Both the position numbers and the translations under genes were made by a program. A DNA stretch of 47,357 bases from Chloroflexota bacterium (lineage in GTDB: Bacteria > Chloroflexota > Anaerolineae > Anaerolineales > Anaerolineaceae). Positions 8,815 to 47,357 of this stretch are shown piece by piece. The DNA lies in contig JAJXZS010000038.1 in NCBI GenBank assembly GCA_021779955.1, positions 1 through 47,357 on the forward strand, in the 5' to 3' direction. The notes under the pieces were generated by a model. The model was given only the letters and a program-made list of their open reading frames with translations. It was not told where the DNA came from and did not search any database. Each line of letters opens with the position of its first letter. Positions within the stretch are counted from its first letter, which is position 1.

Positions 8815-9864
8815 CTAGCCCTTCAAATAAGCATCCAGGGCGTCTTTGCTGATGCGATACGATTCGCCAATCTTCTTCGCCTTCAATTCGCCAGAATTGA
8901 TGGCAGCCAGAACATCTGCTTCGGCAACCTTCAATACATTGGCCGCCTCTGCAGGAGTCATCACTGCAGGAACATTGGCGGTGGCTGCTGCGCCTGCAGC
9001 AGCATTGGCTTGCTGCCCTGCAGCCATGCCCGAAAGGGACTGGCTGAGCACGCTTCCAATGCCCATACCGGCTCCAATACCAGCCGTCAATCCTGCTCCC
9101 CCGCTCGGATTCTGTGCCGCTTCGCGCATGGCATCCGCAGCCTGCAACTGGGTATAAGTTGCCATATCCAACATACCCATTGCCCGCAGTTCTTCAGCCG
9201 ACTTATCTGACGGCTTCAAGTTACCGATATAGAAACTCTTGAGCGTCATGCCGATGGCAGCGAAATCGTCCTGCGCTTTTGCGCGTACTGCGGCGCCTAA
9301 TTCCTCGGTCAGGCCGATCAATTCCATCACGTTTTGTTTGGCTGCTGTTTCGCCTAACACATCCTGAAGCTTGGAAAGGATCATTGTGCGGAACCGGTTA
9401 TCGATGTCCGACATCCGGTATGTGCCAGTCGCACCCACAACCTGAGTCACAAATTGCTGCGGGTCGGCAACCTGTACGCTATAGGTGCCAAAACCAACCA
9501 GCAGAGCGATTCCAAGTCCAACCCCTGCATTACGCACAATAATGGGTTGTGGTGTTCCCCACTTCATATCGACGAATTCCTTCATCGATACATAGTAGAC
9601 CTCAGCAGTAAAAGGCGTCCGGTCGTTGAAAGCCTTGCCGAGGAAATCGATCAGGACTGGTATGTTTGCAGTAACGATGGTATGCCGGCCTGGACCAAAC
9701 ACATCCAGTGCGTGGCCATCGCGCATAAATACAGCCTTTTGAGCTTCCCTCACGATAACCTGCGATCCGATTCTCAGGTCAGCAACACCGACTTCAGGAA
9801 AACGATGCACGATCTCATCGGTCATCTCACTTGGATATTCCACTACATCGAAAATTCGAGCCAT
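8815..9864 (-). CDS. SPFH/Band-7 protein with C-terminal excisionase-type HTH domain
   Basis: A 349-residue two-domain protein. Residues about 20-230 resemble the YdjI-like branch of SPFH (stomatin/flotillin) proteins once called virion-core-like: REAQKAVFMRDGHALDVFGPG near the start, then a long helical stretch. Residues about 235-295 are Ala/Gly/Gln-rich and flexible. Residues about 300-349 form a MerR/excisionase-like HTH (MTPAEAANVLKVAEADV, then SGELKAKKIG, ending ALDAYLKG). SPFH proteins oligomerise at membranes; an attached DNA-binding fold is uncommon and its target is unknown. There is no signal peptide or clear membrane span. It is the second gene of an operon with the helical protein at 9912-10430. 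Confidence 0.8.
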   Translation of the reverse strand: MARIFDVVEYPSEMTDEIVHRFPEVGVADLRIGSQVIVREAQKAVFMRDGHALDVFGPGRHTIVTANIPVLIDFLGKAFNDRTPFTAEVYYVSMKEFVDMKWGTPQPIIVRNAGVGLGIALLVGFGTYSVQVADPQQFVTQVVGATGTYRMSDIDNRFRTMILSKLQDVLGETAAKQNVMELIGLTEELGAAVRAKAQDDFAAIGMTLKSFYIGNLKPSDKSAEELRAMGMLDMATYTQLQAADAMREAAQNPSGGAGLTAGIGAGMGIGSVLSQSLSGMAAGQQANAAAGAAATANVPAVMTPAEAANVLKVAEADVLAAINSGELKAKKIGESYRISKDALDAYLKG

Positions 9865-22060: not shown

Positions 22061-22399
22061 TTGAGAACACCTGCCGGAACTGAATGTCCGTATTTCTACG
22101 GCGACTATTACCGCGGCAAGAACGTTGAGGAATGCCGTCTGATCGGTCACGTGCCTCCACCCCGCAATTGGACGCGCGATCTTTGCGCCGTATGCCCTGT
22201 TCCGGGGATATCCAGGGCGAATTCTTGTGAATTTATGATCCTGACGCCTACTGTCCACAGAGGTGTTTTGGGCGTTGGGAAGAAGGTTACCATAACTGCT
22301 TATTGCCGCAAGGCCAACGCTGTTGTGAAGGTTCCTGAAATCGGCTGCGGTATTTGCCATCCCATCGGCCTCTTCGGCAATTCCAATAAAACCGGATGA
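22061..22399 (+). CDS. Small eight-cysteine protein of unknown function
   Basis: A 112-residue protein that I cannot assign to a named family. It has eight Cys (9, 25, 42, 45, 56, 82, 96, 99), including CxxC pairs at 42/45 and 96/99, which suggests zinc or Fe-S binding. Aromatic CPYFYGDYYRG opens the protein. There is no signal peptide. The only in-frame start is TTG at 22061, since a stop codon lies just upstream. It overlaps the next gene in an ATGA junction, so the two are almost certainly translated together. Its codon use and placement look like those of a real gene. Confidence 0.7.
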   Translation: MRTPAGTECPYFYGDYYRGKNVEECRLIGHVPPPRNWTRDLCAVCPVPGISRANSCEFMILTPTVHRGVLGVGKKVTITAYCRKANAVVKVPEIGCGICHPIGLFGNSNKTG

Positions 22400-23610
22400 C
22401 ATTAACCCTCCTGATCGATCTCGACGACACTCTGCTGGTCAATCCGCTGGACAAGTTTTTCCCGGAATATATCGCAGCCCTCTCTACTCACCTCTCGCCT
22501 TATGTCGATCCGCATAAAATGGTGCCGCAGTTATTGCACGCGACGGACCTGATGATTGCCAAAGAGAATCCTTGCGACACCCTTCAGGCCGTTTTCGAGT
22601 CCGATTTCTACCCAGCGCTGGGCGTTCAGAAATCGCAGCTCAGCCAACCGATCGCTGATTTCTATGCAGGTCCCTACGACAAACTTCGTCATGTAACCAA
22701 ACCTATCCCCGCTGCTGCCCGAATTATGGACATGGCTCAAGAGCAGGGTTGGCATGTCGTGATTGCCACAAATCCCCTCTTTCCTTGCAGCGCCGTCTTG
22801 AAACGCCTCGAGTGGGCGGGTCTCGATGCCGGCAAGTACAACTATTCGATGCTCACCTCTTACGAGAACATGCACTTTTCCAAACCCAATCCAGCTTTTT
22901 ATGCCGAAATCCTTGGTCAGCTTGGTTGGCCTGAGGGTCCTGTGTGCATGGTTGGCAACAGTCTTTCAGACGATTTGGCTCCAGCGGCCAGGCTAGGGAT
23001 CCCCTGTTTTTGGGTGAATGGCGCGAGCCAGGATTCACTCGATTCGCTTCCAGGCAACTCGACGATGGGAAAGCTTGACGAACTGATTCCCTGGCTTAAC
23101 AGGATTTCCAAATTGCCCCCCCTGCCTGAGATCACCGATCCCGAAGGCATCCTGGCCGTACTGAAGTCAACCTCTGCGGCACTGGAAGCCCTCACAAAAA
23201 AGCGTAAGCATCTTGATTGGCGCCTGCGCCCCATTGATGGCCAGTGGAGCCTGCTCGAGATCATGTGCCACCTGCGGGATGTCGAGCGCGAGGTAAATCT
23301 GGTGCGTTTCGAGTTGCTTTCCACCACCCCCAACCCATTCATCCCCGGCGTAGATTCAGACCGTTGGGCAATCGAACGCAACTACAACGAGCAGGATGAC
23401 TCAAGTGTTTTCGACGATTTTTGCATCAGCCGCAGCCGCCTACTTGAGATCGTCAAGAAATATTCCCCCGACGATTGGATGCAATCTGTAAGGCATTCAT
23501 TCTTCGGACGCACTACCCGCCTGGAGTTGGCCCAATTCATAGCCGCTCACGACCGTACGCATTTGCAGCAAATGGCTCAAACCATTAATGCCATGAGTCA
23601 AGCTCGATGA
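22396..23610 (+). CDS. Fusion of a HAD-type hydrolase and a DinB-like domain
   Basis: A 404-residue two-domain protein. Residues 1-225 form a haloacid dehalogenase-like phosphohydrolase: DLDDT at the N-terminus (motif I), the ATNP motif II, the KPNP motif III Lys and GNSLSDD motif IV. Residues about 245-400 resemble a DinB/YfiT four-helix domain, with WSLLEIMCHLRDVE and the terminal AHDRTHLQQM, whose His residues usually bind a metal. The start overlaps the Cys-rich gene (ATGA). Both domains look complete, so this is more likely a real bifunctional protein than a sequencing join. Substrates are unknown. Confidence 0.85.
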   Translation: MTLTLLIDLDDTLLVNPLDKFFPEYIAALSTHLSPYVDPHKMVPQLLHATDLMIAKENPCDTLQAVFESDFYPALGVQKSQLSQPIADFYAGPYDKLRHVTKPIPAAARIMDMAQEQGWHVVIATNPLFPCSAVLKRLEWAGLDAGKYNYSMLTSYENMHFSKPNPAFYAEILGQLGWPEGPVCMVGNSLSDDLAPAARLGIPCFWVNGASQDSLDSLPGNSTMGKLDELIPWLNRISKLPPLPEITDPEGILAVLKSTSAALEALTKKRKHLDWRLRPIDGQWSLLEIMCHLRDVEREVNLVRFELLSTTPNPFIPGVDSDRWAIERNYNEQDDSSVFDDFCISRSRLLEIVKKYSPDDWMQSVRHSFFGRTTRLELAQFIAAHDRTHLQQMAQTINAMSQAR

Positions 23611-37038: not shown

Positions 37039-38535
37039 CTACTGCTCCTCGATTGCGATCCTGAAAGAGACGAAAGGCATCCGTATCCACCAACGCGGAC
37101 GGAGAATCACCTCGCCTGGGGCTCGAAAGTTGCCCTGACTATTGAGAATGCCCTGCACATCGGTGACCGGCACGCCTACCAAACTTTGCACAAGTGCATC
37201 CGTGGAGATCGAGATTTCAGTCTGTCGAATTGCGTGCACGTTCCAACTGTATGTTCCGGAGTCTTGCCGCACGGCTTTAGATAAATCTTTGAGTTCAAGC
37301 ATCCCCGAGACCGCTTTGATCCCTGGCTCAAGGTTTGCGTTCATAATCGAGCTGGCAAGGTACGTAAGATCCGCTTTTGAGTAAGTGGTTGCGGTAAACA
37401 GCACTTTGATTTCCAATGAAAACCGGTCGGATGGGGTTCCCGGTGAGATGGATCGAGTCTCGCTTACAACTTCACTATTGTCAAGGCTCGCCGGGATCAG
37501 CGCATCTCCTTCAGGCAACTGGCCCGTGATCGTTTGGATGGCCTGGTTCTTCAAATCGCTCAACAACTGGGTGCGCAGCGTCGAATAATCTGCTTCAGAG
37601 GGAGTGGGCGAATCAGCCGAAACTCCACCTGAAATTTTTGCAGCATTTGTGATGCTGACAGCTCCAGCCCAACTGGCTTGCGCTAAAAATCCTGTTCCTT
37701 CTGCCAGGTTCCACTCCACCCCTGCGTTTTCCGCTTCGACCGGCACAATCCCCGGGTTGCCTCCCCTGGAGTCGATGGTTACATCGGCAGTTGATACATA
37801 TATTTTTTCGTCGCTGCTGATTGTGCTAAATCGAGTACCCTGGGGAATTGTGATCTTAGAATCAAAATTGTTCGATAGAGTCAAACTACCCCTGGCTTTG
37901 GCTGTACCAACCTTCATCGTCCCGCTGCTAACGCCGGTTCCGGTTTCACTGAGCTCAAGCTTCGTAAGCTTGCCAGGTAGGATCCCGGCAAGGTTGACAT
38001 CGGTGGCCGCCGGGTTCACCAGAACCGCAAGGTCGATGGTTTGCTCAACTCTGCGCGGAAAAATCTTGATCTCCGCCGAAGGATAAAAGTACCCGACCAA
38101 TGCAAACACTGCCAACAATCCTGCGATGAAAATCAGCGCCTTGCCTACCGGTAAGCCCCGGTTGGTTCTGAGAGGCGGGTGGATCGAATCTCGCTGGGCC
38201 ACAAGTTCGTCATAACCTGTCGGTGGGGTGCGCTCGATCATCTTCCGTGACCCCGGCTTCCAGTGCCTTCGTTCAGCCTGGCTCACCGAGTCGAATACGT
38301 TGATTCCCAATTCGCGGGCGTTCTCGCGTACCTGCCCATCTTTGGAGATGAAGCTGATCTCCACCCCCAATCTCTCGGCATCGCGTTTAAGCATCGAAAG
38401 AGGATAATACTCCGAGAGCAACTTCCCCTTTTTAGGCCAAATGAAAATCACCCTGCGGGCTTTTGCCCAAGCAAGTTTATCCCTGGCCGAAACCAGATCG
38501 TCGTGCGCTTCGAGCTGAATGATATAGGTCTTCAT
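37039..38535 (-). CDS. Single-span membrane protein with a large outer domain, baseplate J-like
   Basis: A 498-residue protein. Residues 1-100 form a small alpha/beta domain (MKTYIIQLEAHDDLVSARDK, then FIWPKKGKLL) with a Rossmann-like look; a single membrane helix lies at about 131-151; residues 152-498 are outside the cell and beta-rich. I recall similar proteins in Anaerolineae being labelled 'baseplate J/gp47', but nothing here shows a phage origin. I chose ATG at 38533-38535; ten further residues upstream would read through the -10 box. Co-transcription with ruvX and mltG suggests a cell-envelope role. Function unknown. Confidence 0.7.
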   Translation of the reverse strand: MKTYIIQLEAHDDLVSARDKLAWAKARRVIFIWPKKGKLLSEYYPLSMLKRDAERLGVEISFISKDGQVRENARELGINVFDSVSQAERRHWKPGSRKMIERTPPTGYDELVAQRDSIHPPLRTNRGLPVGKALIFIAGLLAVFALVGYFYPSAEIKIFPRRVEQTIDLAVLVNPAATDVNLAGILPGKLTKLELSETGTGVSSGTMKVGTAKARGSLTLSNNFDSKITIPQGTRFSTISSDEKIYVSTADVTIDSRGGNPGIVPVEAENAGVEWNLAEGTGFLAQASWAGAVSITNAAKISGGVSADSPTPSEADYSTLRTQLLSDLKNQAIQTITGQLPEGDALIPASLDNSEVVSETRSISPGTPSDRFSLEIKVLFTATTYSKADLTYLASSIMNANLEPGIKAVSGMLELKDLSKAVRQDSGTYSWNVHAIRQTEISISTDALVQSLVGVPVTDVQGILNSQGNFRAPGEVILRPRWWIRMPFVSFRIAIEEQ

Positions 38536-38548
38536 ACAGGTCCAGACT

Positions 38549-38554
38549 ATTATA
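38549..38554 (-). promoter_or_regulatory. -10 box upstream of the baseplate J-like gene
   Basis: A perfect TATAAT on the minus strand ends 13 bases before the chosen ATG, so the transcript would have a leader of only about seven bases and little room for a ribosome binding site. No good -35 box is seen. Confidence 0.4.
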
Positions 38555-38689
38555 CAATGGTACACGTTTCCAAAGCCGGCAGTTGCCCGTATGCACCAAT
38601 TTCCCTTTTAGCGTTTATAAGGCCTTCATTTTGAGCATGGTGTTACACTATAGTAAGTTACTGAAACCCTGTAGAAAGGAGTCGCCAAC

Positions 38690-39534: not shown

Positions 39535-40113
39535 GTGGACAACGTAACTTCATCGCGTGAAAAGGCGATGCTCCTGGCACAGGCGATGATCGCCGAGAAA
39601 CCTGTCTATATCGACACCGAGACAACCGGTCTGCGGCAAAGCGACGAAGTGGTCGAAATTTCCATCGTCGATTTCGACGGTACGATTCTGCTCTCGTCAC
39701 TGGTCAAACCCACCCAACCCATTCCGGTGGATGCCCAGTATATCCACGGCATCAGCAACGAGATGGTCAAGACCGCGCCGATGTGGCCTGTGCTCTGGCC
39801 GCAGATTCGCGAAATCTTCCATGGACGTGTGATTGCAGCCTATAACGCTCCGTTTGACTTGAAAATGATGCAGCAATCTCATTCGCGCTATAAGCTTCCC
39901 TGGCGTGAAAGCCTTAAGCTGGTCGATGTGCTTTTGATCTATTCCGATTACAAGGGGATTTGGGATCCGGTTCGGCGTTCCATGCGCTACTTCAAACTGC
40001 AAGAAGCAGGCAGCTCTTTCAATATCCCGTTACCCAACGCGCACCGTTCTACCGCCGACGCTCTTCTCACCCGCGCCGTCCTTCACAGCATCGCAGGAAT
40101 AGAATACGCTTGA
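39535..40113 (+). CDS. DEDDh 3'-5' exonuclease (DnaQ-like)
   Basis: A 192-residue exonuclease of the DnaQ/RNase T fold. The acidic residues are readable: YIDTETTGL (Exo I), the IHGIS segment, AYNAPFDLKMM (Exo II) and HRSTADA (Exo III with His, DEDDh type). I chose GTG at 39535 because AGGAGA lies seven bases before it; an in-frame ATG at 39502 would overlap the lipoprotein gene. The protein is too small to be a polymerase subunit by itself. It sits 17 bases before the helicase-like gene, so it likely trims ends in the same process. Confidence 0.9.
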   Translation: MDNVTSSREKAMLLAQAMIAEKPVYIDTETTGLRQSDEVVEISIVDFDGTILLSSLVKPTQPIPVDAQYIHGISNEMVKTAPMWPVLWPQIREIFHGRVIAAYNAPFDLKMMQQSHSRYKLPWRESLKLVDVLLIYSDYKGIWDPVRRSMRYFKLQEAGSSFNIPLPNAHRSTADALLTRAVLHSIAGIEYA

Positions 40114-40130
40114 CCGGATAGGAAGACATC

Positions 40131-42254
40131 GTGGCACTCACTGAACTCACCCAGGAGCAGCAGGCGTTTCTTGAGCAGCCGTTCGAAAGCAAGTTGCTTT
40201 TGATAGGCTCTGCAGGCAGCGGCAAAACTACTGCCGCTGTGGAACGCTTGAAATCGCTGGTGGGAAATGGAATACCTGCTCGCAGTGTTTTGATCCTCGT
40301 TCCGCAAAGAAGTCTTGCCATACCATACGTTGAAGCGGTCCAAAATGCCGGGTTCCCCGCAGGTGGTGAACCCGCTGTGGTCACCCTCGGCGGTCTTGGC
40401 CAGCGAATGATATCGCTCTTTTGGCCCATGATCTCCAAAACATCCGGTTTTGCGAAACCAAATTTCCCTCCGCAATTTCTCACCCTCGAATCTGCCCAAT
40501 ATTACATGGCGCAGGTTATCCAACCCTTCCTGCAGAAAGGCTACTTCGAGAACATCAGCATCGATCCGAACCGCCTCTACAGTCAGATCCTGGACAATAT
40601 CAATAAGGCAGCAGTGGTCGGTTTTCCACTTGGCGAGATCGGCGAGCGCCTTAAGAAAGCCTGGTCAGGCGAAGCTTCGCGATTGATCACCTATGATCAG
40701 GCACAGGAATGCGCAGTTGAATTCCGCAAATTCTGCTTGAAGAACAATCTGCTCGATTACTCGCTCCAGTTCGAACTTTTTACGGGTACCCTGTGGAAGA
40801 CGCTCCTTTGCCACGAATACCTGATCAGGAATTACCGCCACCTGATCTACGACAATATCGAGGAAGACGTACCCGTTGCGCACGATCTTGTCTCGGAATG
40901 GCTACCTGAAATGGACTCCGCTTTGCTCATACGCGATACTGCCGGCGGCTTCCGTTCCTTTTTAGGCGCCGATCCGGATTCAGCTCAAAACCTGGGCAAC
41001 CTCTACGAGCAGATTCATTTTTCGAGATCGCTGAACCAGTCCGAGGGAATAAAATCGTTCCAATCGGCCCTCCATTACGCAATTCAAGATCGCAAAGCCC
41101 CGGAATCTGACTCGTCCGACTGGCAGGATGCCTTTGAAGTCCAATCCTTTCGCTTTTACCCTGAAATGATGGATTGGACCGTAGACCGCATCTCGCTCTT
41201 GCTCCAACAGGAGGTTCGGCCTGACGAAATCGCAGTATTAACACCCTACCTGAGTGATTCACTTCGCTTCTCGCTATTCAACCGGTTTGAGCTCAAAGGA
41301 ATACCTGTCAAGACTTTTCGGCCTTCCCGCAGCCTGAAAGACGAACCGGTCACACGCGCGCTGCTCAGCCTGGCGAAGATTGCATACCCGCAGTGGCACA
41401 TGATTCCTTCAAAGCAGGATATTCGTTTTGCTTTGACGCAAAGCATTGCTGGCGCCGATCTGATCCGCGCCGACCTTCTCGCGCAAACCCTCTACCAGCC
41501 TGGCAAACCCGATGGTCCATTTGCTCCATTCGAGCAAATCCGCCCCGAGATGCAATCCCGAATCACTTTTTCCATCGGTGAGCGGTACGAGCGTCTGCGT
41601 CAATGGTTAATCGAATTCCGCAGCAGGCAGGTGAACGAGCTTGACATTTTCTTGAGCTCCATTTTCGGGGAGATCCTTTCACAGGAGGGTTTTGATTTTC
41701 ACCAAAACCTCGAGGCGGCAGCGGTCACAGCCAGGTTGGTCGAATCTGCGTTGAAATTTCGCCGCGCAGTTCTCGTCGAAAACGTGCCTCTGCAGATCCC
41801 CATTGGCAAGGAATACACCAACTTGCTCGATCGCGGTTTGATCGCTGCCCAATCAGTGAGCAGCTGGAGACAGCAGATGCAAGCCAACGCCGTGCTCCTG
41901 ACCCCTGCGTTCACCTTCCTGATGAGCAACCGCCCCGTCCGCTACCAGTTCTGGTTGGACGTTGGTTCGCACGGATGGTGGACACGCCTGGATCAGCCGC
42001 TTACCCAACCCTATGTCCTTAGCCGCCAATGGGATCCTTCCATGCGATGGTCGCATGATTTCGAGGTTGTGAATAACCAAAAGAACCTCGATCGCCTGGT
42101 TTCAGGACTCCTGAGTCGCTGCCGCGAGAAAGTCTTCCTCGGAATTTCAGGCATGAATGAGCAAGGGAATGAGGAACGCGGCGAACTGGTCAACGCGGTG
42201 CAGGTTTTGCGCAGAAAAATGATTGCCATGGGGTCAAAGGTCGAGCATGTTTAA
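40131..42254 (+). CDS. AddB-like/UvrD-like ATPase with degenerate helicase motifs
   Basis: A 707-residue protein of UvrD-helicase-like design. A Q-motif-like start (TQEQQAFLEQP) leads to a complete Walker A GSAGSGKTT (26-34) and a motif Ia-like VLILVPQRSLA. In place of motif II (DExQD) it reads YDNIEED (240-246), and in place of motif III (GDxxQSIY) it reads IRDTAGGF, although the following RSFLGADP is kept. A later DEIAVLTPYLSDS block matches the motif IV region; no motif V/VI pair and no nuclease domain are visible. This pattern suits a regulatory or structural partner, as the helicase-like half of AddB is to AddA. GTG start at 40131. It overlaps the helicase gene by eight bases. Confidence 0.75.
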   Translation: MALTELTQEQQAFLEQPFESKLLLIGSAGSGKTTAAVERLKSLVGNGIPARSVLILVPQRSLAIPYVEAVQNAGFPAGGEPAVVTLGGLGQRMISLFWPMISKTSGFAKPNFPPQFLTLESAQYYMAQVIQPFLQKGYFENISIDPNRLYSQILDNINKAAVVGFPLGEIGERLKKAWSGEASRLITYDQAQECAVEFRKFCLKNNLLDYSLQFELFTGTLWKTLLCHEYLIRNYRHLIYDNIEEDVPVAHDLVSEWLPEMDSALLIRDTAGGFRSFLGADPDSAQNLGNLYEQIHFSRSLNQSEGIKSFQSALHYAIQDRKAPESDSSDWQDAFEVQSFRFYPEMMDWTVDRISLLLQQEVRPDEIAVLTPYLSDSLRFSLFNRFELKGIPVKTFRPSRSLKDEPVTRALLSLAKIAYPQWHMIPSKQDIRFALTQSIAGADLIRADLLAQTLYQPGKPDGPFAPFEQIRPEMQSRITFSIGERYERLRQWLIEFRSRQVNELDIFLSSIFGEILSQEGFDFHQNLEAAAVTARLVESALKFRRAVLVENVPLQIPIGKEYTNLLDRGLIAAQSVSSWRQQMQANAVLLTPAFTFLMSNRPVRYQFWLDVGSHGWWTRLDQPLTQPYVLSRQWDPSMRWSHDFEVVNNQKNLDRLVSGLLSRCREKVFLGISGMNEQGNEERGELVNAVQVLRRKMIAMGSKVEHV

Positions 42255-44484
42255 CCCGCGTCTGCACCAGGCAGAAGTTCTTGAATATGGTGGCGGCTGG
42301 ATGGGTGTCTCCGCCGTCCCTGGCAGCGGTAAAACCCACACGCTTTCTGCCCTGGCTGCACGTCTGATCCTGGAAGGCCAGCTTCAGTCCGACCAGGAAG
42401 TGCTCATTGTCACTCTGGTCAATTCTGCCGTGGACAACTTCTCCAGCCGCATTGCCGGCTTCGTCAAGGCTTCAGGGCTCCTCGAAAATGTTGGTTACAG
42501 AGTACGCACGCTGCACGGCCTGGCCCATGATATCGTCCGTGAAAGCCCCGATATTGCCGGTGTCTCGGATCAATTCTCCATCATTGATGATGGTGAGTCC
42601 ACGAAGATGATTGACGAGATTACGGCTGCCTACTTGCGCGAGCATCCGGAATTGACCGAGGTATACATCACTAGCTCGGCCGATGATTCATCCTCCAGCC
42701 GTCTGGGCGCCCAGTGGAACAGCCTGCTCAATTCCATCAATTCCAGCTTCATCTCCCAGGCCAAGGATCTTCAGGCTGAGCCCGGCGATATTCGCAAGGC
42801 GCTTGAAAAGCGCAAGTTCCACGATCCGCTTATCGAGATGGGAATTGAAGTCTATACGCAATATCAGCGAGGTTTGCACTTCAGGAATGCCGTCGACTTC
42901 ACCGATCTCATTCGAATGGCCTACACAGTCCTTCGTTCGGATCCTCAATATCTTGAGCGGCTGCGTTTCCGCTGGCCCTACGTGCTCGAGGATGAAGCCC
43001 AGGATTCCTCTTACTTGCAGGAGCAGATCCTGAGATTGCTGATTGGGCCCTCCGGAAATTGGGTACGCGTTGGCGATCCAAATCAGGCAATCTATGAAAC
43101 TTTTACTACAGCTAATCCCAAATATCTAAAGGAATTCCTCGATACTCCAGGCGTGATCCGCCGCGAACTGCCTAATTCAGGCCGGTCGAACCTCAGCATC
43201 ATTAACCTGGCCAACCAACTGATCCGCTGGACGGAATCCGGGCACCCTGTTGAAACCTTGCGGAAATCGCTCACCAGCCCCTATATCGAGCCTGCCCCTC
43301 CTGGCGACCCGCAGCCCAACCCACCCGACTCCCCCAATGCCATTTATGTTCACAAGAATAAGCTCAAGCCTGACCGCGAGCTCGAGGTCGTGATTAATTC
43401 ATTGAAAAGTTGGCTTCCAGGCAATACCGACAAGAGCGTCGCTGTCCTCGTCCCGATTGCCAAACGAGGCGAAAGAGTCGTCGAAGAGCTCGACGGGGCT
43501 GGCATCAAAGTTGTCGAAATGCTCAAAAGCAGTCAGTCCACGCGTAAAACCGCGAAGATGATCCAAAAACTGCTCCTTTCCCTGGCCGACCCATCCTCCC
43601 CGCCGAAATGCTCGAATGCCTTTCAAGAAATTTATCAATCTCCGCAGCATAATGTGGAAGACAACGAGCGGGTCGAGCGCCTTGCAATGCTCTTGCGAAA
43701 AACCTTGAAACTTGAGGATTTCTTCTACCCGTTTTCCGGGCGTTCACTTACAGCCTTGTTTGATGCTTCCGACCTCGATGAATCTGATATTGCCTTACTC
43801 GACGATTTCCGCAAGAAAATGGTTCGTTGGCAGGCAGCATCCTCTTTGCCCATCGATCAACTTGTGCTCACGCTCGCCCAGGACCTCTTCACTACGCCCG
43901 CCGACTTGGCGTTGACCCACAAGTTTGCCTTGCTGCTCGAATTCAGCGCCGCCAACCATCCCGAGTATAAGTTGGTCGATTTTGCAGATGAACTGCGCGA
44001 GATAGCCAGCAACGAGCGGCGATTCATAGGCTTCAGCGAAGAAGAGACGGGCATCGACCCTGCCAAGCACAAGGGTGAGGTCTTCGTTCTCACTTACCAC
44101 AAGGCCAAGGGCCTCGAATGGGACCGTGTCTACCTTCTCTCTGTCAATAACTACGATTTCCCGTCCGCGGTAGAAGGTGACGAATATCTGAGCGAGAAAT
44201 GGTTTGTCAAAGACCATGCCAATCTCGAAGCCGAAACATTGGCCAAACTGAAAGCAGTCGTTGGCGAGGATATTCCCGCGCTACACACCTCTACCAATGA
44301 TGCCACCCTGCAGGCGCGTGAAGATTATGCCGCCGAGCGCTTACGCTTGTTTTACGTCGGCATCACCCGCGCCAGGGAAAATCTGATCATCACCTGGAAC
44401 AGCGGCAAGCGTGATGCCTGCACCATGTCACTACCTTTGCAGGCAATGCTTGCATGGATGGAGAATAATAATGCTCCCGACTGA
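42247..44484 (+). CDS. UvrD/Rep/AddA-like SF1A helicase
   Basis: A 745-residue 3'-5' DNA helicase with all motifs: I (PGSGKT, 25-30), Ia (LIVTLVNSAVDNF), Ic (TLHGLAHDI), II (EDEAQD), III (VGDPNQAIYE), V (TYHKAKGLEWDRVYL) and VI (LFYVGITRARENL). It ends right after motif VI, so it lacks the C-terminal nuclease of AddA or RecB. I chose ATG at 42247; it overlaps the AddB-like gene by eight bases (ATGTTTAA), and its own end overlaps the nuclease gene by 14. This tight packing implies one complex: motor here, partner upstream, nuclease downstream. Confidence 0.9.
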   Translation: MFNPRLHQAEVLEYGGGWMGVSAVPGSGKTHTLSALAARLILEGQLQSDQEVLIVTLVNSAVDNFSSRIAGFVKASGLLENVGYRVRTLHGLAHDIVRESPDIAGVSDQFSIIDDGESTKMIDEITAAYLREHPELTEVYITSSADDSSSSRLGAQWNSLLNSINSSFISQAKDLQAEPGDIRKALEKRKFHDPLIEMGIEVYTQYQRGLHFRNAVDFTDLIRMAYTVLRSDPQYLERLRFRWPYVLEDEAQDSSYLQEQILRLLIGPSGNWVRVGDPNQAIYETFTTANPKYLKEFLDTPGVIRRELPNSGRSNLSIINLANQLIRWTESGHPVETLRKSLTSPYIEPAPPGDPQPNPPDSPNAIYVHKNKLKPDRELEVVINSLKSWLPGNTDKSVAVLVPIAKRGERVVEELDGAGIKVVEMLKSSQSTRKTAKMIQKLLLSLADPSSPPKCSNAFQEIYQSPQHNVEDNERVERLAMLLRKTLKLEDFFYPFSGRSLTALFDASDLDESDIALLDDFRKKMVRWQAASSLPIDQLVLTLAQDLFTTPADLALTHKFALLLEFSAANHPEYKLVDFADELREIASNERRFIGFSEEETGIDPAKHKGEVFVLTYHKAKGLEWDRVYLLSVNNYDFPSAVEGDEYLSEKWFVKDHANLEAETLAKLKAVVGEDIPALHTSTNDATLQAREDYAAERLRLFYVGITRARENLIITWNSGKRDACTMSLPLQAMLAWMENNNAPD

Positions 44485-45286
44485 TTTTGCATTCAACCAG
44501 CAAAACCTTCAGGATTTTGAGGACTGCTACAGGCGTTTCCATTTACGCTACGTCGAGCATCTTGAATGGCCTGCCATAGAATCGGAGCCTGTTTTGATTC
44601 AGGAAAGGTTGATGGAACTCGGCCAAACTTTCCACACCATGGTACAGCAAAGCCTTTCAGGTGTTCCCGCAGACGTCATCCGCGCAGGCATCCATGATGA
44701 ACAACTCGAACGCTGGTGGCGTAATTTCGAATCGTTCGATCTCGATCTCTCGAACAAGACTTTTCTGGTCGAAGAGCTGATCTCCGTCCCACTGGCCGAT
44801 TTCCGCCTTGTCGCAAAATTTGATCTTTTTACCATCGACGAGAAGCACAATATCCTCATCTATGATTGGAAGACTTCTCAAAAACCTCCCATTCGCAAAA
44901 ACCTGCTAGCCAAGACCCAATCCAAGGTTTACCCATTTGTAGCCGTCAGAAGCAGCGCTGCCCTGACCCATTCTGACCCGGTTGGACCAGAAAAAGTCAA
45001 AATGATTTACTGGTTCCCCGAATTTCCTGAAGATGCCGTCGAATTGGACTACTCTGCATCTCAATATGAAAAAGCCGGGCAATCCTTCACGGATACCATC
45101 AACGAGATCAATACCCTCGAAGGACGCGAAGCATTCCCGAAGACTGAAGATCGAAAACGCTGTGCTTACTGCGCTTTTCGCTCATTTTGCGGCCGCGGCG
45201 ACACACCCGGAAGCAATGACGAGGACGCGCTCCCCATCTCGAGCGCTTCTGACGAGGCGTTCGACATCAATTTTGATTCCTTCTAA
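44471..45286 (+). CDS. Stand-alone Fe-S PD-(D/E)XK nuclease (AddB/RecB/Cas4-like)
   Basis: A 271-residue nuclease. H55 (GQTFHTMVQ), D118 (AKFDLF) and D132-W-K134 (IYDWKTS) make up the PD-(D/E)XK site. C19 (EDCYRRF) together with C231, C234 and C240 (CAYCAFRSFC) match the split four-Cys site of the [4Fe-4S] iron-staple fold seen in AddB and Cas4. I chose ATG at 44471, inside the last codons of the helicase gene; a start 60 bases earlier lies deep in motif VI. It should provide the cutting activity of the complex; a single nuclease contrasts with the two of AddAB. Confidence 0.88.
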   Translation: MLPTDFAFNQQNLQDFEDCYRRFHLRYVEHLEWPAIESEPVLIQERLMELGQTFHTMVQQSLSGVPADVIRAGIHDEQLERWWRNFESFDLDLSNKTFLVEELISVPLADFRLVAKFDLFTIDEKHNILIYDWKTSQKPPIRKNLLAKTQSKVYPFVAVRSSAALTHSDPVGPEKVKMIYWFPEFPEDAVELDYSASQYEKAGQSFTDTINEINTLEGREAFPKTEDRKRCAYCAFRSFCGRGDTPGSNDEDALPISSASDEAFDINFDSF

Positions 45287-45306: not shown

Positions 45307-47357
45307 ATGAAGATCGCCCCGAATTGGATCTTTTCACCCCCGGTCGAGATTCCCCCCGAGCTCAAAAGCGACCTCGCTGCCCCTGATTTCCTACTCGAAT
45401 GCCTGGTGCGGCGCGGCATCACCACGTCACAAGCGGCGCTTGCCTTCCTGGACTTCCACAAGTACACGCCCACGTCTCCGGATACGTTGCCTGATTTGCC
45501 CAAAGCTGTCGAACGGATTCGTAAAGCGGTTGAAAATCGTGAAACCATTGGCGTTTGGGGTGATTTCGATGTCGACGGCCAGACGGCTACTGCCGTGCTG
45601 GTAGATACACTACGCAGAATTGGCGCTGACGTTGATTTTCACATCCCTGTTCGAGGCATGGAATCACACGGCATCAATCTCGATCCGCTTAAAGTCTTTC
45701 TCACCCATTCGATGAAGGTGCTGCTGACTTGTGATACCGGCGTCTCGGCAAACGAAGCTGCAACTTACCTGCAATCAGTCGGGGTCGATCTCATCATCAC
45801 CGATCATCACCAGCTTCCCGAAATTCTCCCATCCGCGCTGGCGATCATCAATCCCCAATTGCTGCCCACAGACAATCCATTGCACGATCTGGCCGGCGTT
45901 GGTGTCGCCTATAAGCTTGCAGAAGCGCTTCTTTTGAGTTATGGCAAGGATGATACCATAGTGACCCTTCACGATCTTGTGGCTTTGGGCTGTGTGGCAG
46001 ATCTGGCAACCCTGCGCGGTGACACACGTTATCTTGTCCAATCGGGAATCGATCGCATGCGCAACTCTCCCCGCCTCTTCCTGGCGAAGATGGCCTCAAA
46101 ACTCGAATTGACTCTCGAATCGTTCAGTGAGGAGAATATCGGCTTCGACATTGCTCCGCGCATGAACGCAGTCGGCCGGCTCGATGATGCGAATCCGATG
46201 GTGGATTTCCTGCTTTCGGATGATGCAGAAGAGATCGAGACCATCCTCACCCACATGGAAGCGTTGAATGCTAATCGCAAGCTCCTGGTCAGCCAGGTCT
46301 TTCAAGGCTGCCTCGCGCAACTCGAGACCAACCCTGGTTTGGCAGATCGATCCATTTTGATCCTATCCCATCCGGATTGGCCTGCAGGTGTCGTCGGTAT
46401 CGCTGCAGGCAGGCTTGCTGAATGGACTTACAAACCCGTCATCTTGTTGAGCGGAGCAAAAGAAGAGATCCTGCGTGGCTCTGTGCGTTCCATCCCAGGC
46501 ATCGACATCACTGCGGCTCTCGCTCAAAATCAGGACCTGCTGCTGACGTTTGGCGGACATCCCATGGCTGCCGGACTTTCCCTCAATGCAGAAAACCTCC
46601 CTGAATTCCGTGCGCGGATGCATCTGACCGTCGCCGCGATGGCGGAAGCGACGCATGTCGAAGCTGAATTGCCTGTGGAAACCGCCTTGAATCTCGACCT
46701 GGTGGATCTCAATCTACTCGCCGATCTCGACCGCCTGGCTCCCTTTGGCCCTGGCAATCCTTCTCCCATTTTCGCTGCACCTGGCCTCACGCTTCAAGAC
46801 ACCTCCGTTCTGGGCCACAATGGAGACCACCGCCAGGCGATCGTCGAAGACGAACGCGGGGACGATTACCGCATCCTTTGGTGGCAGGGAGCCGATCTAC
46901 CTCTCCCGGAAGGCCGCTTCGACCTGGCATACAAAGCTCGCTTGAATGTCTACAAAGGCACTCCCAAGGTCCAGTATGAATGGGTGGATTTTCGCCAATC
47001 ACAGGAGCCAACACCTGTTACACTGGCCAAATCGGCGAAAAAATATGAATTGCTCGATTTTCGTCAATTTTCATCACACGCTCCCGAAATTCAGGCTGTG
47101 ATCGACCTGAACCAAGCCTTCTTCTGGCAAGAAGGCGCAAATGCGGCAGTCGCTTCACGTGACCGCACAAGCTTCGAGAAATCATCCACTCTCGTAATTC
47201 AAACGGTTCCGCCTTCGTCCGCAGACCTGCTCGAAGCAGTGTCGAAAATTAAACCCGCAAAGATCCTGTTTCTTGGAGAAATCCCGCCTGAGAACGATCT
47301 TGGGGTCTTCCTGCGGGAATTGGGCGCGTTCCTCAAGCAAGCTGCGCAACAGGGCAG
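45307..47357 (+). CDS. recJ: Single-stranded-DNA exonuclease RecJ (3' end outside window)
   Basis: At least 683 residues of a RecJ 5'-3' exonuclease, cut by the right edge. DHH-domain motifs are GDFDVDG (motif I), TCDTGVSAN (II), ITDHHQLPE (III, DHH) and GCVADLATL (IV); the DHHA1 domain shows HPDWPAGVVGIAAGRL and TFGGHPMAAG, and an OB-like domain follows (FGPGNPSPIF). A region beyond residue 580 continues into an extra C-terminal part. ATG at 45307 is 20 bases after the nuclease gene; the ribosome binding site is weak. Being the fifth DNA-processing gene in a row, it likely joins the same repair pathway. Confidence 0.94.
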   Translation, partial: MKIAPNWIFSPPVEIPPELKSDLAAPDFLLECLVRRGITTSQAALAFLDFHKYTPTSPDTLPDLPKAVERIRKAVENRETIGVWGDFDVDGQTATAVLVDTLRRIGADVDFHIPVRGMESHGINLDPLKVFLTHSMKVLLTCDTGVSANEAATYLQSVGVDLIITDHHQLPEILPSALAIINPQLLPTDNPLHDLAGVGVAYKLAEALLLSYGKDDTIVTLHDLVALGCVADLATLRGDTRYLVQSGIDRMRNSPRLFLAKMASKLELTLESFSEENIGFDIAPRMNAVGRLDDANPMVDFLLSDDAEEIETILTHMEALNANRKLLVSQVFQGCLAQLETNPGLADRSILILSHPDWPAGVVGIAAGRLAEWTYKPVILLSGAKEEILRGSVRSIPGIDITAALAQNQDLLLTFGGHPMAAGLSLNAENLPEFRARMHLTVAAMAEATHVEAELPVETALNLDLVDLNLLADLDRLAPFGPGNPSPIFAAPGLTLQDTSVLGHNGDHRQAIVEDERGDDYRILWWQGADLPLPEGRFDLAYKARLNVYKGTPKVQYEWVDFRQSQEPTPVTLAKSAKKYELLDFRQFSSHAPEIQAVIDLNQAFFWQEGANAAVASRDRTSFEKSSTLVIQTVPPSSADLLEAVSKIKPAKILFLGEIPPENDLGVFLRELGAFLKQAAQQG

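Follow-up and report, generated by a model that had tools for sequence, protein, structure and literature searches.

Enzymes that trim DNA ends govern bacterial break repair and the destruction of linear foreign DNA. In AdnAB of Mycobacterium, each chain combines a motor and a nuclease. AddB and RecC contain inactivated helicase domains that have been described as Chi scanners (PMC4824097), an iron-staple domain has been described in AddB (PMC7430649), and one survey found AdnAB in Actinobacteria only (PMC6452273). A survey from 2005 inferred still-unknown presynaptic mechanisms, since recombining genomes lack many of the presynaptic enzymes (PMC1193525). Here, we describe three genes on contig JAJXZS010000038.1 of a Chloroflexota bacterium (class Anaerolineae, family Anaerolineaceae; assembly GCA_021779955.1), analysed in a window of 47,357 nucleotides that spans positions 1 to 47,357 of the contig. 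They encode a superfamily 1A (SF1A) helicase, a dead helicase-fold partner and a free iron-sulphur nuclease, and probably represent a presynaptic helicase-nuclease set in three chains, through which Anaerolineae accomplish what AddAB, AdnAB or RecBCD accomplishes elsewhere. This makes the set a concrete candidate for a presynaptic mechanism of the kind inferred in 2005, across many Anaerolineae. The genes and their key motifs are as follows.

40131..42254, + strand: AddB-like, dead SF1A helicase-fold subunit (707 aa, GTG start)
40206..40229, + strand: Walker A of the AddB-like protein, GSAGSGKT, residues 26-33 (G26, G31 and K32 in 42/42 alignment rows)
40851..40868, + strand: motif II of the AddB-like protein, DNIEED, residues 241-246, paired by profile alignment with motif II of AddA
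42247..44484, + strand: SF1A (UvrD-type) helicase without nuclease domain (745 aa, ATG start)
44471..45286, + strand: stand-alone iron-sulphur PD-(D/E)XK nuclease (271 aa, ATG start)
44864..44872, + strand: catalytic D-W-K of the nuclease, residues 132-134
45161..45190, + strand: CX2CX5C, the three C-terminal cysteines of the presumed iron-sulphur "staple"; the fourth cysteine is at 44525-44527

The stop codon of the AddB-like gene (42252-42254) and the ATG of the helicase (42247) give an overlap of 8 bases, and the helicase stop (44482-44484) and the nuclease ATG (44471) one of 14 bases. Coordinates, strand and overlaps are as given in an earlier note on this DNA, which proposed a split AddAB-like complex with motor, broken partner and nuclease on separate chains. 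The separation of the chains holds: Pfam detects no nuclease domain on either the AddB-like protein or the helicase, and the nuclease has a gene of its own. Chance is excluded as the source of the three-gene observation. The locus contains just imperfect short repeats, and no Rfam matches were found in it.

Conservation was read from alignments of 42 rows, each including the window protein, drawn from 41 of 76 listed homologues (alignment A5), 41 of 45 (A8) and 41 of 54 (A7, which was hand-picked, as were the structure inputs). The motor is a complete UvrD-type helicase, in agreement with the earlier note; Pfam assigns UvrD N (152.4 bits) and C (77.1 bits) domains, and 19 checked positions are each kept in 42/42 rows among homologues with 44-60% identity to the window protein. 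Phylogenetically, the motors form a clade of their own (100/100), outside both PcrA/UvrD/Rep (98/97) and AddA/RecB (96/100). The tree that shows this is weakly rooted (49/34), the stem leading to the motor clade measures 3.16 changes per column, and the program flagged long branches. Some of its rows are stop-to-stop frames, and one row was trimmed at the N-terminus. The motor profile matches AddA strongly.

The protein encoded by the first gene had been called an AddB-like ATPase. Walker A is indeed kept; since motif II is changed and the ADDB_N domain is not detected, "AddB-like" is a label by analogy. The position of the catalytic Glu in motif II is occupied by Asn in 41/42 rows, with Glu-Glu further on in the motif in 42/42, and the position of the motif III Gln, paired through the AddA profile alignment, is Gly or Ala in 42/42. 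Homologues are 44-65% identical to the window protein. Pfam gives a weak UvrD N-domain match (28.7 bits, cut-off 23) and no ADDB_N (PF21445) at E up to 1, whereas ADDB_N is present in 4/4 scanned Chloroflexota AddB proteins. At the profile level, the partner matches the N-terminal half of AddB with 95.1% probability, AddA with 94.3% and the motor weakly, with 25.2%; a search of PDB sequences returned nothing significant (best E 1.3). The AlphaFold model (predicted local distance difference test, pLDDT, 88.3) has an SF1A fold, with matches to UvrD (Z 29.7; 9.6 Å, 573 residues), Rep (29.1; 3.2 Å, 444), AdnB (25.7; 4.8 Å, 615), AddB (22.0; 6.2 Å, 608) and RecB (20.3; 5.7 Å, 577), and among the Foldseek rows listed the top template modelling score by query length is that of AdnB (0.66). 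That a family is missing from the structure match lists carries no evidential weight. The fold of the dead partner is that of UvrD proteins in general and does not single out AddB.

The description of the third protein as a stand-alone Fe-S PD-(D/E)XK nuclease is borne out by a match to Pfam PDDEXK_1 (82.7 bits) and by conservation in 42/42 rows of H55, D118, D132, K134, Q150 and Y154 and of the four cysteines C19, C231, C234 and C240, among homologues with 32-46% identity to the window protein. Profile comparison (hhalign) pairs the nuclease with the C-terminal domain of Chloroflexota AddB at 97.3% probability (E 2e-11 over 229 columns) and with the nuclease of AddA at 6.3%. The structural model (pLDDT 87.8) matches AdnA (Z 18.4; 2.9 Å, 220 residues), Argonaute-associated ACE1 (16.4; 3.3 Å, 219), AddB (15.7; 3.2 Å, 227), Cas4 (12.2; 3.6 Å, 184) and RecB (11.5; 3.7 Å, 177). 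The nuclease thus resembles the iron-staple domain of AddB and AdnA. Assignment as a CRISPR Cas4 was considered and rejected: the protein scores 20.8 bits against the Cas4 equivalog TIGR00372 (cut-off 65) and barely passes Pfam Cas_Cas4 (22.8 versus 22.7), and neither cas1 nor cas2 was found in the part of the window's genes that was scanned.

By anatomy, the set looks like AddAB, AdnAB and RecBCD, with differences from each. It shares with AddAB (RexAB) an SF1A motor, an inactivated SF1A partner and an AddB-type iron-staple nuclease, but has three chains instead of two, a motor that lacks an AddA-type nuclease domain and lies outside the AddA/RecB clade in the long-branched tree, and a partner without ADDB_N signal. 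When the features of AddAB were tested, neither two subunits each ending in a nuclease domain nor ADDB_N was found; the likeness is solely in the nuclease, which is of the AddB iron-staple type with four cysteines. With regard to AdnAB, the nuclease is structurally closest to the nuclease domain of AdnA and the partner resembles AdnB. Here, however, the nuclease is free, nuclease motifs occur on one chain only, and one motor is of the active type while the other has a changed motif II; judged from the sequences, the arrangement of an active motor plus nuclease on each chain is absent. RecBCD similarly has three subunits, one nuclease and one dead helicase-fold subunit (RecC), but the locus lacks a RecD-type second motor, and the RecBCD nuclease, being part of the RecB chain, matches less well in structure. 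The nearest published layout that we found is the unfused UvrD and Cas4-like operon, in which a UvrD-type helicase and an iron-sulphur nuclease are encoded by separate genes of a single predicted operon with a suspected role in repair (PMC5704561). That description, on which the comparison is based, names two genes, whereas here a dead helicase-fold protein adds a third gene that is inherited with them. No description of the three-gene set was found in the open-licence literature searched, which does not establish its absence from print. The set looks like an undescribed variant of bacterial DNA-end-trimming machines, in a little-studied class.

The same comparisons bear on the possibility that the set is a classical AddAB that underwent gene fission, with AddA losing its nuclease and AddB being cut into a helicase-like and a nuclease part. 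The match of the nuclease to the C-terminal domain of AddB, that of the partner to the N-terminal half of AddB and the strong match of the motor profile to AddA are in line with such a history. The separate clade of the motor, placed outside AddA/RecB on a long stem, argues against it, as do the near-equal proximity of the partner to AddA and AddB, its lack of the ADDB_N found in the scanned Chloroflexota AddB proteins, its closer structural relation to UvrD and Rep, and the position of the nuclease gene after the motor rather than after the dead partner. We consider fission quite improbable, and the set is read as a three-chain functional counterpart of AddAB and AdnAB, not as a simple split.

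The genome that contains the window (2.83 Mb, 56 contigs) is rated 100% complete. It encodes three proteins with a UvrD N-terminal domain, namely a PcrA-like protein (TIGR01073 801 bits, cut-off 911, with a PcrA/UvrD Tudor domain), the window helicase and the dead partner, and the UvrD_C domain is confined to the first two; a RecB with fused nuclease is not among them. The AddB model gave 0 matches, and the best match of a Chloroflexota AddA profile (196 bits) was to the PcrA-like protein; the same profile reaches more than 1400 bits or full length in six other genomes and 1188 bits in genome G108. Classical addA, addB and recB, whose presence would have counted against the earlier note, were not found in the genome, with RecD not being sought. 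Two further PDDEXK_1 proteins in the genome were examined and discarded as candidates, one being an Argonaute-associated nuclease and the other a small Cas4-like protein. The former, which is Cas4-like, belongs to a known kind of pair (G000:C27; L173:1546-4855, - strand): it overlaps by 29 bases the gene for a 775 aa long Argonaute of pAgo class II (PADLOC 88.9 bits; VbAgo E 8.6e-15).

The distribution of the three genes was determined in 201 genomes, one per species and all from Chloroflexota. Thresholds were strict and chosen by us (helicase E up to 1e-50, nuclease 1e-12), such that weaker matches would not show. The AddB-like profile matched 103 genomes at E ≤ 0.001, of which the 21 with at least 390 bits were counted; the other 82 matches were below 43 bits and covered short stretches, nearly all in the N-terminal ATP-site region. 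The helicase was found in the same 21 genomes and the nuclease in all but one of them (20); at these thresholds the remaining 180 genomes lack all three genes. The counts take no account of kinship. The positive genomes are our own, 4/4 others of the family, 12/12 of the order (all of one family) and 4/8 others of the class. A near-relative sample of eight order members, each from another family, has the AddB-like gene in 3/8. Among 33 near genomes, the AddB-like gene and the helicase occur in an identical group of 24, of which 22 also have the nuclease, and within the genus the dead partner is present in 11/12 sampled relatives, the exception being G005 (80% complete). Along with the proteins themselves, their motif states and the predicted folds of two of them, this near-perfect co-occurrence is established for the set. 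In 8 of the 24 genomes the set spans no more than 10 kb and in G048 no more than 17 kb; the helicase gene of G017 is split by a contig break. Two one-contig genomes have the nuclease 128 kb (G025) and 352 kb (G132) away from the dead partner and still keep the set. Because all three genes are kept even where unlinked, a shared function is indicated rather than hitch-hiking.

Gene order was followed in the best 80 of 290 loci confirmed in a contig scan. All 80 are titled Chloroflexota or its lineages, one of them Chloroflexus; the scan was the sole search outside the phylum, and a wider spread is possible. Two neighbours in the window are relevant to the comparison.

45307..47355, + strand: recJ, truncated by the contig end (TIGR00644 467.5 bits, above cut-off), the usual next gene
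39535..40113, + strand: DEDDh 3'-5' exonuclease (RNase_T 65.6 bits, Pfam), a neighbour mainly in near relatives

In the genus, exonuclease, AddB-like gene and helicase follow each other in this order in 10/10 fetched loci (with the exonuclease of L020 in two frames), and recJ follows the nuclease in 8/10, the contigs of the other two ending earlier. Upstream on the opposite strand are ruvX and a Baseplate_J-like gene, and also mltG where the stretch extends that far. In the window, the protein with the Baseplate_J-like domain is encoded at 37039-38565 (- strand), beside ruvX and mltG, a position kept in the genus. At least 6 kb of downstream sequence is available in 50/80 loci, and 45 of these 50 have the helicase (33 within 300 nucleotides), 40 the nuclease alongside the helicase (34 at most 300 nucleotides from it) and 32 recJ after the nuclease (25 at most 300 nucleotides from it). 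Gene order, whose conservation the earlier note had proposed as a check, is kept in the genus and in many of the other relatives, though not in all. The exonuclease, which the earlier note had placed just before the three genes, does lie there in the window; it is found in 15/80 loci, many of which end early on the upstream side, and for this reason appears to be a local neighbour and not part of the core. A true fused helicase-nuclease frame was not found in any of the 80 loci, some of which end before the nuclease. Three candidate frames were rejected: an apparent uvrD-nuclease fusion in L039, in which the frames are joined by a run of N; a frame of 1180 aa in G092, merely open upstream; and a frame of 399 aa after uvrD in G172, which does not match the nuclease profile and by eye is like a sugar nucleotidyltransferase.

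Pairwise distances of the AddB-like protein, helicase, nuclease and RecJ change in step (Mantel r 0.89-0.94, with 0/999 permutations as high) in the 33/80 loci that have all four genes complete, which fits vertical descent. This bears on a role in anti-phage defence, akin to the UvrD-Cas4 fusions beside restriction systems. Such fusions are known from defence contexts (PMC5704561, section 8), the PADLOC GajB models match the helicase, and the set is patchy across families. A GajB match, in our inference, is expected of any UvrD-type helicase. The genomes carry one full-length copy, diverging in step with recJ (r 0.90-0.94); a viral collection contained no relative of the dead partner, the motor and nuclease not being sought there; and the genus neighbours are recJ, ruvX and mltG. 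The set also departs from the UvrD-Cas4 fusions in having separate genes and, in the genus, these neighbours in place of restriction-modification ones. A defence set is most improbable and was set behind on account of the divergence in step with recJ and the lack of a viral relative of the dead partner.

Classical AddA and AddB were recognized in Chloroflexota from length, domains and neighbourhood, as none reached the NCBIfam cut-off. Fused AddA and AddB are adjacent in G025, G038, G100 and G156, all of which also have the three-gene set, and G048 has the set together with AddA at a contig end, AddB not being detected. The reverse is seen in G108 and G204, with a fused AddA/AddB pair and no three-gene set, and in G014, which has AddB and part of an AddA but not the set. 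In 19/24 set-bearing genomes neither classical AddA nor AddB was detected. It is this coexistence (AddA in 5/24, AddB in 4/24), together with the motor tree and the structural ranking of the partner nearer to UvrD/Rep and AdnB, that led us to set fission behind and to drop the "split AddAB" of the earlier note.

Several observations weigh against a three-chain counterpart of the classical enzymes. Since classical AddA is present in five set-bearing genomes, and AddB also in four of them, the set is not the sole option there. Conversely, 6/9 near genomes without the set (G013, G015, G016, G020, G148 and G212) are also without detected AddA or AddB; they may rely on a different system or need none. 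The set is patchy in the class, occurring in 8/17 sampled families and missing from 5/8 order members of other families. The nuclease was not found in G172 or in G018 (a fragmented assembly), both of which have the first two genes. In 12/24 genomes at least one gene lies more than 100 kb away or on a different contig; genes of a tight complex are not usually so scattered, though contig breaks confuse some of the cases. The dead partner is not recognizable as an AddB from its sequence, and interaction and activity of the three proteins stand at the level of prediction.

Part of this evidence would also suit three proteins that share a repair or replication pathway without forming a single resection complex, for example with motor and nuclease acting on forks or flaps and the partner as a regulator. 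The unlinked genes in half of the 24 genomes and the missing nuclease in G172 point in this direction, as does a motor that is a PcrA-sized helicase in its own clade. There is also a precedent in the unfused UvrD and Cas4-like operons, which are described as mostly from Clostridiales and of unknown role (PMC5704561, section 8). On the other hand, a conserved dead SF1A partner marks AddB and RecC (PMC4824097), and a classical resection enzyme was not found in our own genome, in which RecD was not sought. We regard a shared pathway without a common complex as rather unlikely.

For a three-chain helicase-nuclease, analogy with AddAB and RecBCD as described in the literature (PMC4824097, PMC7430649) would predict a physical complex with defined polarity, strand scanning and resection. 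The complete SF1A helicase would be a 3'-5' motor opening the double-stranded end, and the dead helicase-fold protein beside it may serve as scaffold and strand scanner, like AddB and RecC. The separate iron-staple nuclease, probably homologous to the C-terminal domain of AddB and AdnA, would cut the unwound strand and leave a 3' overhang for RecA. RecJ, encoded by the next gene, may help and would suit completion of 5'-strand removal. Being free, the nuclease could permit regulated recruitment. A bolder proposal, which we put forward tentatively and rate close to an even chance, is that the set is a fourth presynaptic helicase-nuclease lineage beside RecBCD, AddAB and AdnAB and derived from none of them, combining an SF1A scanner that was inactivated independently with a motor of its own clade and a nuclease that is never tethered. 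If so, recruitment of the nuclease would be switchable by binding and release and not by the swing of a fused domain. As the nuclease is a free protein, the need for fusion of nuclease and motor in processive, regulated resection becomes directly testable.

Some minor observations were made along the way. Four PcrA-like matches (G084:C27, G092:C5, G038:C105 and G100:C49) fall in frames of 998-1133 aa in which the matched stretches are far apart, as an insertion, perhaps an intein, would cause. In G212, a class member without the three-gene set, a possible defence locus (L172, 2687-11740) has a DUF1156 anti-phage-type protein, a UvrD-like helicase (697 aa) and a frame of 1285 aa in a row. Elsewhere in the window, one frame at 8815-9864 (- strand) combines an SPFH/Band 7 domain with a C-terminal HTH_17 helix-turn-helix, and another at 22396-23607 (+ strand) has a HAD-type hydrolase followed by a DinB_2 domain.

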